Shown: in pieces, positions 34,947-42,696 of the stretch
How the letters are laid out: every line of letters starts with the position of its first letter
Position numbering within the stretch: the first letter of the stretch is position 1
Assembly (NCBI RefSeq): GCF_947487805.1
Contig: NZ_CANKXW010000009.1
Coordinates: forward strand, 62,001-126,000
Source of the DNA: an uncultured Tateyamaria sp.
GTDB lineage: Bacteria; Pseudomonadota; Alphaproteobacteria; Rhodobacterales; Rhodobacteraceae
Direction: 5' to 3'
DNA: 64,000 nt
The notes under the pieces: generated by a model
The model's input: only the letters and a program-made list of their open reading frames with translations
What the model was told of the DNA's origin: nothing
Database searches by the model: none
Position numbers and translations under genes: made by a program

Positions 34947-35594
34947 ATGGGGATGGATGAGATGTTTGGATGGAAGAACAAGACCGCGCCGCGCCGTATG
35001 CCGGAAATGTCGGGCGCCTGTGACGGCGCCATCATCAACACACGCGGCCATCTGGCCGGCACACGTGTGGCCACCGCGATGGGGTGGCGGGCCGTCGAGG
35101 CTCTGGCGGCAGGCGATCTTGTTCTGACATTCGACAACGGCTTGCAGCCCCTTGTCGAGATCCGCCGCGAGGTGTTCTGGGTGGCCGACATGATGGCGCC
35201 TTCGGCCTACGGGGCGGTGGTGGTGCCGGTGGGGGCACTCGGCAACTCGGCAGAGCTCGAGCTTCTGCCCGACCAGGGGGTGCTGGTGGAAAGCGACGCG
35301 GCCTGCGACGCCCATGGTGATCCTTTTGCCGTGGTGCCTGCCAAGGCGCTGACCGGCTTTCGTGGCATCACCCGTACGGCCCCGCGTACCCAGATCGAGG
35401 TCATCACGCTGATCTTTGACGCAGCACAGGTGATCTATGCCGAAGGCGGCGCGCTGCTGCACTGCCCTCCTGCGATCGTGACGCTGGGCGAACTGGGCGA
35501 CCAGACCCGCGACTATGACGTTATCCGTGCGCGGGACGCAGAATTTCTGGTGGCGTGCATGGAGGCCGAAGACCGCCTGAATGCCGCTGCCTGA
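34947..35594 (+). CDS. Hint (Hedgehog/intein)-like domain protein lacking the catalytic Cys
   Basis: GHLAGTRVATAMGWRAVEALAAGDLVLTFDNGLQPLVEIRR matches the Hint block A pattern; C(F)xxGT replaced by GHLAGT. Confidence 0.75.
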   Translation: MGMDEMFGWKNKTAPRRMPEMSGACDGAIINTRGHLAGTRVATAMGWRAVEALAAGDLVLTFDNGLQPLVEIRREVFWVADMMAPSAYGAVVVPVGALGNSAELELLPDQGVLVESDAACDAHGDPFAVVPAKALTGFRGITRTAPRTQIEVITLIFDAAQVIYAEGGALLHCPPAIVTLGELGDQTRDYDVIRARDAEFLVACMEAEDRLNAAA

Positions 35595-35636
35595 CACCGC
35601 ATTGGCGCGGGCCACATGCCACGCGCCAAACCTTCT

Positions 35637-35702
35637 CTGCACCCGGCCAACACGGGTCTCCGGCCGCTCCGCCCCCAACATCGGAGCGGCGGTCGGGTGC
35701 AG
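35637..35702. other. Nested inverted repeat between the Hint gene and C1 protease gene
   Basis: Outer arms CTGCACCCGGCC/GGTCGGGTGCAG (11/12), inner arms CCGCTCCG/CGGAGCGG (8/8), 10-nt loop. Confidence 0.7.
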
Positions 35703-35789
35703 GGGCTCTGCATAACCTCAAGTTGAGAGTTGACACGACTCGTCCCGCGCGACAGCCTTTTGTTAACATTTGACGAAAGCACTTTTGAC

Positions 35790-38105
35790 ATGACCCTGCT
35801 TGATGCGCGCCCCGACCGTATGGACTTTCGCGACCGCGAATACCGTGCGCGGCTGGTGTCGCAGCCGACCCAGTATCCCAGCAACCGCGAGATGCACACG
35901 TTCTTTGGCCAATACGTGTCCCGCGGCATGATCCTGGATCAGGAATCCGAGGGCGCCTGCACCGGGTTCGGGCTGGCGGCGGTGGTGAATTACCTCAACT
36001 GGATCAAATGGTTGGGCGAAAGCCACGCCGCGGGCCTCAATATCCTGGCCGAGGATCTGCCGGGCCGGCCCGAGACGGTCAGCCCATGGATGCTCTACTC
36101 CGTCGCACAGCTCTATGACGAGTGGGAGGGCGAGGATTACTCCGGCTCAAGCTGTCGCGGCGCGATGAAGGGCTGGCACAAGCACGGCGCGTGCAGCATG
36201 GCGCTCTGGTCGCGCCACACCACCCGTCAGGCCCCCGATGCTGCGTGGTTGCAGGACGCCGCCGCCAACCCGCTGGGCGCGTATTACCGGGTCAACGCCA
36301 TGTCGATCACCGATATGCAATCGGCCATCTACGAGGTCGGCGCGATCTATTGCTCGGCCAAGGTGCACACCGGCTGGAACTTTGCCCAATCCGAGGCCGC
36401 GCCCGAGGTCCAGAGCTTTGACTATGCGCACCCGGATGGCGGCGCACCACAGGTCATGGCGCTGCCTGTGATCGACATGTCGGGCAGCCATACGGGCGGG
36501 CACGCTTTCTGCATCGTGGGCTACACCGACCGCGGCTTTATCGTTCAGAATTCGTGGGGGCCCGACTGGGGTGCCAAATGGGGCGAGGCCGAAACGCCCA
36601 TCGAACACGCCGTGGGCGGCTTTGCCCTGATGACCTACGAGGATTGGGTGATCAACGGGCACGACGCGTGGGTCGCGGCGCTGGCGGCTCCCGTTAAACT
36701 GTCGGACCGGGCCCAGACCAGCCCCGCCCGCTCGCGCCACAGCCTGCTGGAAAAGGTGTCGCTGACGGGCGCACAGCGCAAGCTCGAGGTCGGCGTGTCA
36801 ATGGACAGCATCCGCCCCTGGAGCGAAGAGAAAGCCTATGAGCACTCCATCGTCATGGGCAACAACGGCAAGCTGGTGCGCCGCCGCGTCGACATGAAGG
36901 ACGGCGCAACCGAACTGCGCACCACCATCGGCGCACTGCTCGAGGCCAGCCCGGACCGCGACGTGGTCGTCTATGCCCATGGCGGCCTCAATTCTGAAAA
37001 GGTGGCGATCAAGCGCGCGCAGATGATGGGCCCCTGGTTCGAACGCAACGGCATCACGCCCATCTTCGTGATCTGGCGCACCGGCTTTCTCGAGGCAGTG
37101 TCGAATATCGGCCAGGACATGCTGGCCCAGTACACCGAGGAATTGCAACGCATCGAGCGCAGCGGCTTTCAGAACGTGCTGTCCGCCGCACGGCGCAAGC
37201 TGAACAAGAAATTCGACAACGCGTTCGAGGCGGTGGCTGAAAAGGTGCTGGGCAAGGCCGTGTGGTCACAGATCAAGCAGAACGCCGAGGCCGCCTGCCA
37301 GACCAACAGCGCCGAAGGCATCACCGGCGGCATGCGCATTCTGGCGGACGTGATCCGCGACACCCGCGCGCGCATGGACCGCCCCTTCCGCATTCACCTG
37401 CTGGGCCACTCCGCAGGCGCGATCATCCTGGGCCATTTCGCACAGGATCTGGCGCGCTTTACCGCCATCGGGTCGCTGGGCCTGCTGGCGCCTGCCTGCA
37501 CGCTGTCTTTTGCCAACAAGATGTTTATCCCCCTCGTCGACACCGGCCAGCTGCCGCGCGACAGGTTCTATGTGGTCAACCTCAACCGCAGCAACGAACG
37601 CGGCGACCATGTGGGGCTTTATCACAAATCCCTGCTCTATCTGGTCAGCCGCGCGCTCGAAAGCCCGCGCAAATCGCCGCTTCTGGGCCTCGATGACGCG
37701 TGGATCCTGCCTTCCGAGGTGGCGCAGGGCGAAATGTCCTTTCCGTCCGTCGCCAAATCCGTGCTGGACGATCCCGCCGCCCACGCGCTGCAAATCTATG
37801 AGGAACTGAACCTCTATTACGCGCTGGCGGGCAAGAAAGAGGGCGAGGCCCTGACAAACGCCCAGATCACCCGCCTGCGCAGCGTCAAGGACATCCAGAA
37901 GTGGCGCGCGTTCAAGGCGCGCAGCGAATTTCCCTATCGCATCATCCAAAGCCCGCAGATCCAGGTCCGCGCGGTGGCCAATGACGATGCCTTTGTGCCC
38001 AGCGGGCACGGGGCTGTCGACAATGACCTGACAGTGATGAACTGGGCGCTCTATCACATCGCGGGCGAGGTCCCGCACCCGATCACCGATCTCAGCGGGG
38101 TATGA
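35790..38105 (+). CDS. Papain-like (C1) cysteine protease fused to C-terminal alpha/beta-hydrolase
   Basis: QESEGACTGFG (Gln/Cys), TGGHAFCIVGYTDRGFIVQNSWGPDWG (His/Asn); then VVVYAHGGLNSE and IHLLGHSAGAIILGHF (GxSxG). No signal peptide. Confidence 0.85.
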   Translation: MTLLDARPDRMDFRDREYRARLVSQPTQYPSNREMHTFFGQYVSRGMILDQESEGACTGFGLAAVVNYLNWIKWLGESHAAGLNILAEDLPGRPETVSPWMLYSVAQLYDEWEGEDYSGSSCRGAMKGWHKHGACSMALWSRHTTRQAPDAAWLQDAAANPLGAYYRVNAMSITDMQSAIYEVGAIYCSAKVHTGWNFAQSEAAPEVQSFDYAHPDGGAPQVMALPVIDMSGSHTGGHAFCIVGYTDRGFIVQNSWGPDWGAKWGEAETPIEHAVGGFALMTYEDWVINGHDAWVAALAAPVKLSDRAQTSPARSRHSLLEKVSLTGAQRKLEVGVSMDSIRPWSEEKAYEHSIVMGNNGKLVRRRVDMKDGATELRTTIGALLEASPDRDVVVYAHGGLNSEKVAIKRAQMMGPWFERNGITPIFVIWRTGFLEAVSNIGQDMLAQYTEELQRIERSGFQNVLSAARRKLNKKFDNAFEAVAEKVLGKAVWSQIKQNAEAACQTNSAEGITGGMRILADVIRDTRARMDRPFRIHLLGHSAGAIILGHFAQDLARFTAIGSLGLLAPACTLSFANKMFIPLVDTGQLPRDRFYVVNLNRSNERGDHVGLYHKSLLYLVSRALESPRKSPLLGLDDAWILPSEVAQGEMSFPSVAKSVLDDPAAHALQIYEELNLYYALAGKKEGEALTNAQITRLRSVKDIQKWRAFKARSEFPYRIIQSPQIQVRAVANDDAFVPSGHGAVDNDLTVMNWALYHIAGEVPHPITDLSGV

Positions 38106-38130
38106 CCCCGGCCACCAGAGAGGACATGCC

Positions 38131-41100
38131 ATGGACACGCCGAACGCCTATCTGACCCACCTGCGGTCGCTACTGACGCGCGAAGAGCTTGAGGCGTTGA
38201 TGGACGACCCGGCGGCCTTTGGTGCGGACGATGACGTGGTCGATCCCGACCGCGAGTTGCGGATGGGCGGCCCCATGACCGGCCCTATCGGCGGTGCCGC
38301 TCTGCCGCCCGCGGCCCCGCCTGGTGGGGTGCGCGACACGTTCCAGCGCTTCGAGGCCGAAGAAGAGCTGACCTATGACGAGGTAATGCAGGTCGAGGCG
38401 ATCATCCTGCCGCTCACCCGTCCGGCGGTGCTGGTGCAGGACAACGATTACGCGGTGGAGCATGCCAAGTGGCGCCACCTCAACGACGATGGTGCCGCGC
38501 GCGATCACATCCTGCGCGCGCTGCCAATGGTCGGGCGCATCAACGTGCCCAGCAACGCGGCCATTCCCTATGCGGGCACGGGCTTTGTCGTGGGGCAGGG
38601 TCTCTTGATGACGAACCGCCACGTGGCCGAGCTGTTTGCCGATGGTGTGGGCGCGGGCGATGTGCGCCTCAAACCCGGCGCGTCGGTCAACATCGATTTT
38701 CTGGCCGAACACGGATCCCACGCGCGCCAGCAATTGCAGGTCGCGGGCGTGCGCATGATCCACCCGTTCTGGGACATGGCCCTGCTCGAGGTCGAGGGGC
38801 TGGCCGATGACACCAGCGTCCTTGAGCTGTCACAGGACGACCCCGCGCGCTTGCGCAACCGCGAGGTGGCGGTGGTCGGCTACCCGGCCTTTGATCCGCG
38901 CAATGACCGCGCCGTCCAGCACCGCCTGTTCAACCGTATATACAACGTCAAACGGTTGCAGCCGGGCCTTTATACCAACCGCGCGCGGGTGCGCAGCTTT
39001 GGCAACATCGTCCGCGCGGCGGGGCATGACGCCTCGACGCTGGGCGGCAATTCCGGCAGCGCGGTCATCGATATGCAGACGGGCCACGTGGTCGGCCTGC
39101 ACTTTGCCGGGCTCGAGGGCAAATCGAACTTTGCAGTGCCCGCCTCCGAACTGGCCCGCGATGCGCACGTGACCCGCGCGGGCGTCAGCTTTGCCGGCGC
39201 GCGCCCCCGCCCCGGCAGCAGCCCTTGGGCGAGCCACTGGAACGCGGTCGCGCCCAAGGATGAACCACCCGCGGCGGGCCCGGCGGACACCGCGCCGCAG
39301 ATGACCACAACCGGGTCCAATACCATGACGATCCACGTGCCCGTGACCCTGACCGTGGGCTTTGACGGCACCGCCGTCACGCTTGGCACCGGCGATGCCG
39401 CACCAGCGGCCCCCGCCACCGAAAAGATGGTGGAGCCGACCCACGACCCCGATTACGCCACACGCACAGGCTACGATCCCGATTTCCTCGGCCTGCCCGT
39501 GCCCATGCCCGAGGCCACCAATACCGGCGATCTGTCGGTGCAGGCAGATGGCGCGACCGTGCTGGATTATCACAACTTTTCGCTGGTGATGAACGCGCGC
39601 CGCAGGCTGGCCCAGATCACCGCTAGCATGGTGGACGCCAGCGACGCGGCCAAGGAACCCGAGGCCGATTTCGTCTATACCCGCAAGGCGCTCAACGGCT
39701 TCACCAGCAAGAACGACCGCGAGAAATGGTTCCTCGACCCGCGCATCCCTGCGGGCGATCAACTGCCGGACGTGTTCTACAACCGCGACCGGACAGCCTT
39801 TGACAAGGGTCACCTCGTGCGGCGCGAAGCCGTGGCCTTTGGCGCCAGTTTCACGGATGTGCAGCTGGCCAATGGCGACACCTTCCACTCGACCAACTGC
39901 TCGCCGCAGGTCAAGGGCTTCAACCGCTCGATGCTGCGCGGCGTCTGGGGCCAGCTGGAAAACGATGTGCTGGCGGCGGCGGCCACTGAACGCTGCGTGG
40001 TGTTCAGCGGCCCCGTGCTGGCCGACACCGACCCGGAATTCCACGGGCGCGACCTGAACGGCGACACGGTGGTGCAGATCCCCGCCCGCTACTGGAAGAT
40101 GATCGTCACGCGCGAGGGCGACGCGCTGCGCACCCACGCCTACCTGCTGGAACAGGACCTCGACGACGTCGATTTCGAATTTGCCCGCGCAGGCGACTGG
40201 GTCGATCACGAGATCGCGCCCGACGCGCTCGAGGCTTTGCTGGGCAATGTCCGCTTTCCCCACCTGGCCGATGCGGGCCGGGACAAGATGTCGGCCGCCG
40301 AATGGATGGAGCTGGTGCAGGACCCCGACACCACCGACCGCGAAATCCTTGACGTGTCGCTGATCCTGCCCGGTGCCGGGGCGTTCGATTTCCGCGTCGT
40401 GCCGAATCCCGATGTCGTCGACCTGCCCGAAGGCGCAGAGGATACCGAGAACGCGATGGCCGTGGCCAATGATCTGGCGCGGTCGCGGCGCGCCACGAAA
40501 TTTGCCCTGCGCAAGGACTTCGGCAACGCGCCCGTGCTGGTGTCGGAAATGGACAGCTGGGGACAGTTCCCGGTGCTGATCGACGAGATCGTGGACCACC
40601 TGAACAAGGGCTACAATGTCTATTCCGTGGGCGCGGCGGGTGACACGGCGCAGAACATGGTGCGCGGTCCGGTGCAGGCGCGCGGGCAGGAATACATGCT
40701 GGCGCTCGATGCGCAGCGCGACGAGGTGCAGGCCTTTGTGTTCTCGGCTGCGGGCAATGACATCATCGGCGAGGACCCCGCCACGGGGCGGGCCGCGCTG
40801 ATGGACCTGATCCTTGATTTCAACGGCGATGCCAGCGACGTCGACGGCCACATCAACCACGCGCTCTTGCAGGACAAGCTCGACATGCTGCGCGGCATGT
40901 ACAAAGAGGTGATCAGCACGATCCGGGACGATGCGGATTTTGCGACCCTGCCGATCCTCGTGCACGGCTACGACGTGCCCTTTCCCTTCCCATGGGTGGG
41001 CGACCGCCGCAATCCGGTGCACGCGGCCAAGGACAAATGGCTGGGCACCCCGTTTGCGGCGCGCGGCATCCACGACCACACCCTGCGCCGCGCGATCCTG

Positions 41101-41307
41101 ACGCGGTTCATCGACCGGCTCTATGACATGCTGAACGATCTGGCGGGCACGTCCGCGACATCCCATGTCTGGGTGGTCGACTGCCGCGGTGCGTTGCCGC
41201 ATGTGTCGGACTGGATCGACGAGATCCACGGCACCTCCGCAGGTTTCCGCAAGGTGACGCAACGGTTCCGCGACTGCCTTCTGCAAGCCGGGGTGCCACC
41301 AAAGTGA
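38131..41307 (+). CDS. Trypsin-like serine protease + NUC1 DNA/RNA non-specific endonuclease + SGNH-hydrolase-like fusion
   Basis: LLMTNRHVAELF / DMALLEVEG / GGNSGSAVID (protease triad); FDKGHLVRREAV, HSTNCSPQVKGFNRSMLRGVWGQLEND (NUC1); EMDSWGQFP, GAAGD, AAGNDI, DEIHGTSAGF (SGNH blocks). Confidence 0.85.
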   Translation: MDTPNAYLTHLRSLLTREELEALMDDPAAFGADDDVVDPDRELRMGGPMTGPIGGAALPPAAPPGGVRDTFQRFEAEEELTYDEVMQVEAIILPLTRPAVLVQDNDYAVEHAKWRHLNDDGAARDHILRALPMVGRINVPSNAAIPYAGTGFVVGQGLLMTNRHVAELFADGVGAGDVRLKPGASVNIDFLAEHGSHARQQLQVAGVRMIHPFWDMALLEVEGLADDTSVLELSQDDPARLRNREVAVVGYPAFDPRNDRAVQHRLFNRIYNVKRLQPGLYTNRARVRSFGNIVRAAGHDASTLGGNSGSAVIDMQTGHVVGLHFAGLEGKSNFAVPASELARDAHVTRAGVSFAGARPRPGSSPWASHWNAVAPKDEPPAAGPADTAPQMTTTGSNTMTIHVPVTLTVGFDGTAVTLGTGDAAPAAPATEKMVEPTHDPDYATRTGYDPDFLGLPVPMPEATNTGDLSVQADGATVLDYHNFSLVMNARRRLAQITASMVDASDAAKEPEADFVYTRKALNGFTSKNDREKWFLDPRIPAGDQLPDVFYNRDRTAFDKGHLVRREAVAFGASFTDVQLANGDTFHSTNCSPQVKGFNRSMLRGVWGQLENDVLAAAATERCVVFSGPVLADTDPEFHGRDLNGDTVVQIPARYWKMIVTREGDALRTHAYLLEQDLDDVDFEFARAGDWVDHEIAPDALEALLGNVRFPHLADAGRDKMSAAEWMELVQDPDTTDREILDVSLILPGAGAFDFRVVPNPDVVDLPEGAEDTENAMAVANDLARSRRATKFALRKDFGNAPVLVSEMDSWGQFPVLIDEIVDHLNKGYNVYSVGAAGDTAQNMVRGPVQARGQEYMLALDAQRDEVQAFVFSAAGNDIIGEDPATGRAALMDLILDFNGDASDVDGHINHALLQDKLDMLRGMYKEVISTIRDDADFATLPILVHGYDVPFPFPWVGDRRNPVHAAKDKWLGTPFAARGIHDHTLRRAILTRFIDRLYDMLNDLAGTSATSHVWVVDCRGALPHVSDWIDEIHGTSAGFRKVTQRFRDCLLQAGVPPK

Positions 41308-41498
41308 CGGGCCCCCGTCGGCAATGATCGGCGCGGCCCCGCGCATGGGGTATGCGACGCGGCAAACGCCTGGTGCGCCGGACAAAGCAGACCCATGCTG
41401 GTGCACAGTGAATGTCAGCCTTAACTCGGGGATAAAATTTTGCGGAACAATCGGTCTGCTCTATGGGTTCGCTTTAAATGCAACCAACGGAGACCGCA

Positions 41499-42140
41499 AT
41501 GCGCGCAATGACAACCGCCCTCGCTTCAGTTTTGGTCACATCCGCACCTTTATGGGCAGAAACCTACGCGGCGGACGTCTGGGCCGATAACTGGTTCGAA
41601 ATGCGCGTGAACGGTGAACAGGTTGCAGAAGACAGCGTTTCGATCACCACCGAGCGCTCTTTCAACGCCGAAAGCTTCTCCTTCGAGGCCGAAAAGCCAT
41701 TCGTCATTGGTCTGGTCGCCAAGGATTTCAAAGAAAATGACACAGGGTTGGAATATATCGGCACGCGCCGTCAGCAAATGGGGGATGGCGGCGTCATTCT
41801 TCAGATCCGGAATGCCGCCGGTGAAACAGTTGTGGTGAGCGACGACACGTGGCAATGCCAGGTCATTCATACCGCGCCGCTGGACAAGTCCTGCGAAGAC
41901 GAAAGCGATCCGGTCGCGGGCGAAGGTGCTTGCGGGTTTGAAGCCTCCGATGAACCCGATGGCTGGGACTTGGCCGACTATGACGCGTCGGACTGGGCGC
42001 AGGCCACCATTTACACCGCCCAAGACGTCGATCCAAAATTTGGATATGACGACATCACTTGGAACGCGGATGCTAAATTTATCTGGGGACCGGATCTGGA
42101 ACAAAGCAATACCGTTCTGTGCCGTCTCACCGTCGACTAA
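41499..42140 (+). CDS. Secreted beta-sandwich (galactose-binding-like) protein
   Basis: Signal peptide MRAMTTALASVLVTSAPLWAE; DVWADNWFEMRVNGEQVAED typical of carbohydrate-binding jelly rolls. Confidence 0.65.
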   Translation: MRAMTTALASVLVTSAPLWAETYAADVWADNWFEMRVNGEQVAEDSVSITTERSFNAESFSFEAEKPFVIGLVAKDFKENDTGLEYIGTRRQQMGDGGVILQIRNAAGETVVVSDDTWQCQVIHTAPLDKSCEDESDPVAGEGACGFEASDEPDGWDLADYDASDWAQATIYTAQDVDPKFGYDDITWNADAKFIWGPDLEQSNTVLCRLTVD

Positions 42141-42168: not shown

Positions 42169-42696
42169 ATGTTCAAACCAGTTGCTCCGTTTATTGCGGC
42201 CATGATGGTCGCAGGCATGGCCCATGCCGAGAACGTCGAAATCTACGTCGTCGATATGCTCGACAACATCCAGGACGGCTACTGCCTCGATATTGCAAAA
42301 GGGCGCGGCGCGGACGCCAACCCTGACGACGGTCTGCAAGCGCACACCTGCTACAGCCCATCAGGCGAGGTGCTGGTTGATCAGGCGTTTGATCCCGACC
42401 AGTTCGCGGACGGCGTGCTTTACATGCCCGAATTCGACGTCTGTGTTCAAACGACCTCGACCGAGGCCGGAGCCGCGCCCGAATTGGCCGATTGTGATGG
42501 GTCCGACGCGCAAAGCTGGGTTTTTGATGGCGAAGGAACGATTGCGCCCGCATCCGCGCCCGACATGTGCCTGACACTGACCGGTGAAACCCGCACAGGC
42601 CGGAGCGACCAGAACCAGATGATCGCGCTGTCCCTGCAAACCTGTTCCAGTGACCTGACCGCGACCCAGACCTGGTCCAACCGCACCGCTGACTAG
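42169..42696 (+). CDS. Secreted ricin-B/beta-trefoil lectin-like protein
   Basis: Signal peptide; YCLDIAKGRG, DAQSWVF and ATQTWSN (QxW-like repeats). Confidence 0.7.
   Translation: MFKPVAPFIAAMMVAGMAHAENVEIYVVDMLDNIQDGYCLDIAKGRGADANPDDGLQAHTCYSPSGEVLVDQAFDPDQFADGVLYMPEFDVCVQTTSTEAGAAPELADCDGSDAQSWVFDGEGTIAPASAPDMCLTLTGETRTGRSDQNQMIALSLQTCSSDLTATQTWSNRTAD

Follow-up and report, generated by a model that had tools for sequence, protein, structure and literature searches.

A candidate two-gene hydrolase module in Tateyamaria pairing a papain/alpha-beta-hydrolase protein with a trypsin-NUC1-SGNH fusion

Several bacterial systems couple a trypsin-like peptidase to a nuclease. A NucA-trypsin conflict system ("System 3"), mostly alphaproteobacterial, has been predicted in which the nuclease is deployed by proteolysis (Kaur, Burroughs, Iyer and Aravind 2020, PMC7159879). 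In Caulobacter crescentus, LypC has a trypsin domain (residues 1-335) and an endonuclease domain (354-662), and its catalytic serine is essential for the host lysis linked to the gene transfer agent (GTA), the S296A substitution abolishing lysis (PMC13236601). Trypsins and caspases also activate pro-nucleases in Hachiman, AVAST, Lamassu and DRT systems and in caspase-nuclease (canu) systems (PMC12799240). Here we describe two adjacent genes, A and B, within a 64,000-nucleotide stretch of DNA from an uncultured Tateyamaria sp. (contig NZ_CANKXW010000009.1, positions 62,001 to 126,000; hereafter the window). Their trypsin-NUC1 half is of this known kind; the SGNH extension of gene B and the partner gene A, a C1 peptidase plus alpha/beta-hydrolase (C1-ABH) gene, appear undescribed.

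Genes A and B are on the same (+) strand and 25 bp apart (38106-38130), just as a first-pass annotation of the sequence had placed them. Their features are listed below, with lengths in amino acids (aa).

35790..38105, + strand: gene A, C1-ABH protein of 771 aa; its open reading frame possibly extends 5' to TTG 35730
35793..36719, + strand: predicted C1 peptidase domain (Gln 35940-35942, Cys 35958-35960, His 36501-36503, Asn 36549-36551)
36825..38102, + strand: predicted alpha/beta-hydrolase domain (HGG 36978-36986, nucleophile Ser of GHSAG 37410-37412, probable catalytic His 38007-38009)
38131..41307, + strand: gene B, predicted trypsin-NUC1-SGNH fusion of 1058 aa
38131..38385, + strand: N-terminal region of gene B, ~85 aa, a possible adaptor
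38392..39180, + strand: predicted trypsin-like peptidase (His164 38620-38622, Asp215 38773-38775, Ser308 39052-39054)
39181..39450, + strand: variable linker between trypsin and NUC1, residues 351-440, a candidate cleavage region
39547..40203, + strand: predicted NUC1/Endonuclease_NS nuclease (His561 of DKGH 39811-39813, Asn589 39895-39897)
40324..40485, + strand: short module preceding SGNH, common to other conflict-type SGNH proteins
40528..41280, + strand: predicted SGNH hydrolase (Ser809 40555-40557, Gly837 40639-40641, Asn876 40756-40758, Asp1030 41218-41220, His1033 41227-41229)

For gene A, ATG 35790 is a likelier start than TTG 35730 because its close homologues at loci L003 (same genus) and L004 (Tropicibacter) begin there. 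The Pfam match of the protein to Peptidase_C1 is weak (0.013). However, the papain residues Q71, C77, H258 and N274 (791-aa numbering) are invariant across 18 homologues, and when an AlphaFold2 model (mean pLDDT 79.4) was compared with the PDB by Foldseek it matched papain-fold proteases, among them xylellain (3ois, E 5.7e-11). On the basis of this predicted fold and the catalytic Gln-Cys-His-Asn set we assign the protein to the papain family. In the alpha/beta-hydrolase part the GG(L) and HSAG motifs and His760 (791-aa numbering) are likewise invariant, while the best esterase matches of the model reached only E ~0.07-0.1. The structure prediction that had been proposed as a check on gene A supports the papain fold and, more weakly, the alpha/beta-hydrolase fold.

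The domains of gene B are assigned from sequence matches and conserved residues. Its trypsin-like region matches Trypsin_2 (PF13365, 8.5e-17), with His164, Asp215 and Ser308 invariant, and is also matched by the PADLOC nacht and RT-Protease profiles. The nuclease region matches Endonuclease_NS (PF01223, 1.7e-28), with DKGH and the Asn invariant. No Pfam SGNH match was obtained for the window's own gene B protein, and comparing a profile of the SGNH alignment with the PDB gave no significant match; nevertheless, the four SGNH blocks I, II, III and V (S809, G837, N876 and H1033) are invariant in 18 homologues of its C-terminal 340 residues, 10 of which match Lipase_GDSL_2 (best 3.8e-11), consistent with an SGNH/GDSL hydrolase. 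The N-terminal ~85 aa, in which no EAD or Death match was found with Pfam, are the least conserved part of the protein (58% identity to L003), and the linker is 67% identical to that of L003, in contrast to 83-84% in the domains on either side.

The two genes are thus predicted to encode five hydrolase domains, each with its catalytic residues preserved, in keeping with the five signatures of the first-pass annotation. Hydropathy shows nothing resembling a signal peptide or a transmembrane segment in either protein (maximum 19-residue mean 1.6); the lack of a signal peptide had likewise been noted in that annotation. Comparison with L003 (78% identity for A and 79% for B) gave ratios of nonsynonymous to synonymous divergence (omega) of 0.18 for gene A and 0.17 for gene B, indicating purifying selection. 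Synonymous divergence (dS) is 0.86 in both genes, against 0.37-0.44 in two flanking genes, and the pair therefore has a deeper or separate history, while its base composition is that of the neighboring genes. We conclude that the pair is a maintained, co-selected accessory two-gene unit.

The accessory status of the pair is evident from its insertion site, which is marked by the following gene.

34947-35594: Hint gene (Hint_2, Pfam 8e-24), adjoining a sulfotransferase gene and marking a variable insertion site

In 12 congeners the same site is flanked by the sulfotransferase and fatty-acid genes, with an interval of 0.8-5.4 kb that holds other content; the A-B pair is missing from all 12. It is present in 1 of the 13 congeners compared. 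Besides the window strain, L003/L146 of the same genus carries the pair at this site. It is, then, an accessory insertion beside the Hint gene and rare in the genus. The Hint gene itself, which had been grouped with the pair as a possible third component, is retained in 11 of the 12 congeners (65-70% identical to that of the window). As this genus-core gene remains where the pair is absent, we do not consider it part of the system.

The known systems account for part of gene B only. Like the NucA-trypsin system, it combines a NucA/Endonuclease_NS nuclease with a fused trypsin-like peptidase, and the description of System 3 in PMC7159879 includes a mostly alphaproteobacterial distribution, attached extra peptidases, proposed proteolytic activation and a papain-like domain among its EAD1-linked effectors. 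A difference is the EAD1/STAND NTPase with bDLD2, described there as an optional feature of a subset only; no EAD or NTPase domain was found in the three proteins scanned here (Pfam, E up to 1). The added SGNH domain and the C1-ABH gene next to it set the pair further apart: neither is mentioned in the account of System 3, and the paper nowhere uses the word "SGNH". LypC has the same order of N-terminal trypsin-like peptidase, linker and C-terminal NucA-type endonuclease, also in an alphaproteobacterial, GTA-bearing host. This likeness is one of shared domain order, the sequence alignment (46% identity over residues 47-721) being to the trypsin-NUC1 homologue of locus L155 (G577) and not to LypC itself. 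LypC lacks SGNH, and neither LypA (CARD-trypsin-ATPase) nor LypB (NLR) was found beside gene B, whose partner here is C1-ABH.

The L155 homologue is in an operon (L155:8527-18340) that also includes an AAA/NB-ARC (NLR-like) protein, a lysozyme-like gene and two more trypsin genes, of which one is LypA-like, an arrangement resembling both LypABC, of the CARD-NLR type, and System 3. By sequence, the trypsin-NUC1 half of gene B is thus homologous to a protein of a CARD-NLR-like operon. The pairs of PMC12799240 are similar in that a protease is coupled to a nuclease and that trypsin and caspase are interchangeable, as in the reshuffled loci below. Their nuclease, however, is a metallo-beta-lactamase-fold pro-nuclease with gating insertions encoded by a separate gene, whereas here a NUC1 (Endonuclease_NS) domain is fused in cis and accompanied by esterases. 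No description of a system with papain, SGNH and trypsin together was found in the open-licence PMC literature searched, a set that does not cover preprints. The first-pass annotation, which regarded trypsin and NUC1 as conflict-system domains, is borne out by PMC7159879 and LypC (PMC13236601); its statement that no described system could be named appears to hold for the C1-ABH gene and the added SGNH domain but not for the trypsin-NUC1 half.

Co-occurrence of the two genes elsewhere had been set as the main test of the pair, and they do co-occur. The exact pair is present, with gaps of 22-35 bp, in L003, L004 (gene A 52% identical to that of the window) and L014 (Roseibium, without SGNH), and the flanking genes differ in L004 and L014. 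Among 399 genomes sampled from the phylum, 21 had a match to the SGNH profile and 14 to the C1-ABH profile; three had both, with the genes adjacent in every case, although the window genome itself accounts for one of these cases. The modules also recur in other combinations. C1-ABH/SGNH pairs are found repeatedly, including in Rhizobium, Sinorhizobium and others, with SGNH and C1-ABH as neighbors in L158, L159 and L058. C1-ABH accompanies SGNH-caspase in L230 (S. meliloti pSymA) and L231, the two being on opposite strands in L103, and in L214 it is beside a single 1128-aa SGNH-caspase-M15 peptidase protein (L214:5810-9193). In L162, C1-ABH and SGNH-trypsin occur with a haem peroxidase gene between them. 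Other arrangements are SGNH with trypsin-NUC1 (L105), SGNH neighboring trypsin-EEP (L104) or fused to it (SGNH-trypsin-EEP, L149), SGNH divergent from trypsin (L147, L148), a trypsin-C1 fusion (L106) and SGNH inside an S8-annotated protein (L236).

By our count, 13 of the 19 conflict-type SGNH loci that had been found without C1-ABH as the query have one or more of these partners, and C1-ABH is within 4 kb in seven. Matches to the broader SGNH profile that lack the short N-terminal module are mostly stand-alone SGNH genes and were excluded from this support. Together, the recurrence of the exact pair and the reshuffled modules argue for one functional system, though most C1-ABH homologues lack such neighbors. 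C1-ABH therefore also functions by itself or with different partners, for example in fusions to Glyco_hydro_19 domains.

Based on these data we propose that the pair is a cytoplasmic, normally inactive module that, when triggered, would kill and dismantle the cell that carries it, a reading to which we assign a probability of roughly 0.5. The trypsin and papain-type peptidases would act as switches, cutting the gene B linker and/or the partner protein, and cleavage would set free the NUC1 nuclease, acting on DNA or RNA, and the two esterases. The alpha/beta-hydrolase and SGNH domains would probably act on membrane or envelope esters, the end result being lysis or death of the own cell. In gene B, processing may take place in linker residues 351-440, and sensing or docking may involve the N-terminal 85 residues. 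A defence or suicide function is plausible, and the most likely biological use seems to us to be abortive infection directed at phages or other mobile elements; we place it above a use in GTA release by judgement, not data. GTA release through lysis follows closely behind because the host genome encodes a GTA and LypC is needed for GTA-linked lysis.

Several observations weigh against self-directed killing by a dedicated pair. No other module is within 3 kb of C1-ABH in 74 of 79 loci, some trypsin-NUC1 genes stand alone, and a recognized partner is missing in 6 of the 19 conflict-type SGNH loci. In Caulobacter the nuclease residues of LypC are dispensable for lysis (PMC13236601). No sensor/NLR, LypA-like or LypB-like gene is next to the pair, and querying the host genome with the LypA-like and NLR-like proteins of L155 gave no match, a weak negative as these searches had no positive control. 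Finally, no defence island was recognized at the insertion site.

Of the alternatives to an anti-phage role, a host-lysis device co-opted for GTA release, as LypABC in Caulobacter, is unlikely but the strongest. It is favored by a GTA gene in the same genome (GTA_TIM, PF13547, E 1.2e-152; G000:C11:54168-55061) and by the trypsin-endonuclease architecture of LypC, a protein on whose peptidase activity GTA-linked lysis depends (PMC13236601); the empty LypA/LypB searches just described and the rarity of this accessory pair within the genus argue against it. A less probable alternative is that the leaderless proteins are effectors delivered into competitors or freed by self-lysis to act on neighbors. 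A cocktail toxin would suit so many hydrolases, and envelope-degrading enzymes are fused to some homologues (Glyco_hydro_19 to C1-ABH proteins, M15 to one SGNH-caspase protein), but the Pfam matches of the two proteins include no PAAR, Rhs, VgrG or RTX delivery domain, and no immunity gene was recognized adjoining it in the window or in L003.

We consider it improbable that these are enzymes of intracellular turnover or nutrient scavenging with no killing role. In favor of this reading, C1-ABH occurs widely across diverse bacteria, for the most part as a stand-alone gene; however, its trypsin-NUC1 and caspase partners, the similarity to the PADLOC nacht profile, the accessory distribution and the combination of a nuclease with proteases in an unexported protein argue against it. 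That two unrelated genes are adjacent merely by chance is very improbable: the many C1-ABH loci with no other module nearby would fit, but chance adjacency is contradicted by the exact pairs in L003, L004 and L014, two of them with differing flanks, and by the recurrent C1-ABH/SGNH neighborhoods of Rhizobium, Sinorhizobium and others.

More tentatively, the pair may be one form of a modular self-dismantling family in which a C1-ABH gene accompanies an SGNH protein and an interchangeable "switch and blade", possibly trypsin-NUC1, trypsin-EEP, caspase, caspase-M15 or S8, is fused to the SGNH domain. Such a family would be a bacterial counterpart of executioner programmes, with protein, nucleic acid, lipid esters and wall degraded together, and would work without a dedicated adjacent sensor. 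If the proposal is right, a larger repertoire of exchangeable hydrolases connects with the predicted NucA-trypsin systems and with the lysis factor of LypC type that has been studied, and an uncharacterized family of papain/alpha-beta-hydrolase proteins is likely to supply death effectors or activators. The compact two-gene unit has predicted trypsin, papain, nuclease and two esterase activities that can be tested singly, and it raises the question of whether the same executioners serve in defence and in GTA lysis.

Several of the loci had additional features. In L230 (L230:2-7902), a SUMF1/EgtB-type gene and a TIGR02594 gene are upstream of the C1-ABH and SGNH-caspase genes, and the gene between SGNH-trypsin and C1-ABH in L162 (L162:11815-13713) encodes an animal-type haem peroxidase (PF03098, 8e-22). 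SGNH genes in L219 (7661-8704) and L221 (10248-11309) are directly beside a gene for an alpha/beta-hydrolase-looking protein (Pfam 0.0075). The C1-ABH proteins at L039:9050-12013 and L040:3068-6649 have an N-terminal Glyco_hydro_19 domain, and that at L012:9146-11998 has an N-terminus judged by eye to be lysozyme-like.

At the insertion site, no known defence or type VI secretion gene was recognized, the 64-kb window not having been screened gene by gene, and the suggested location near such loci was not seen. A virus origin was rejected: a viral-contig scan confirmed no relative, and phage records gave two weak NUC1 matches only. Two small genes downstream of the pair (41478-42140 and 42169-42696) were also rejected as components because they are absent at the L003 locus, where the fatty-acid gene directly follows gene B. 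Both have apparent signal peptides, and their G+C contents (0.56 and 0.60) and third-codon-position G+C (GC3; 0.63 and 0.72) are below those of their neighbors.

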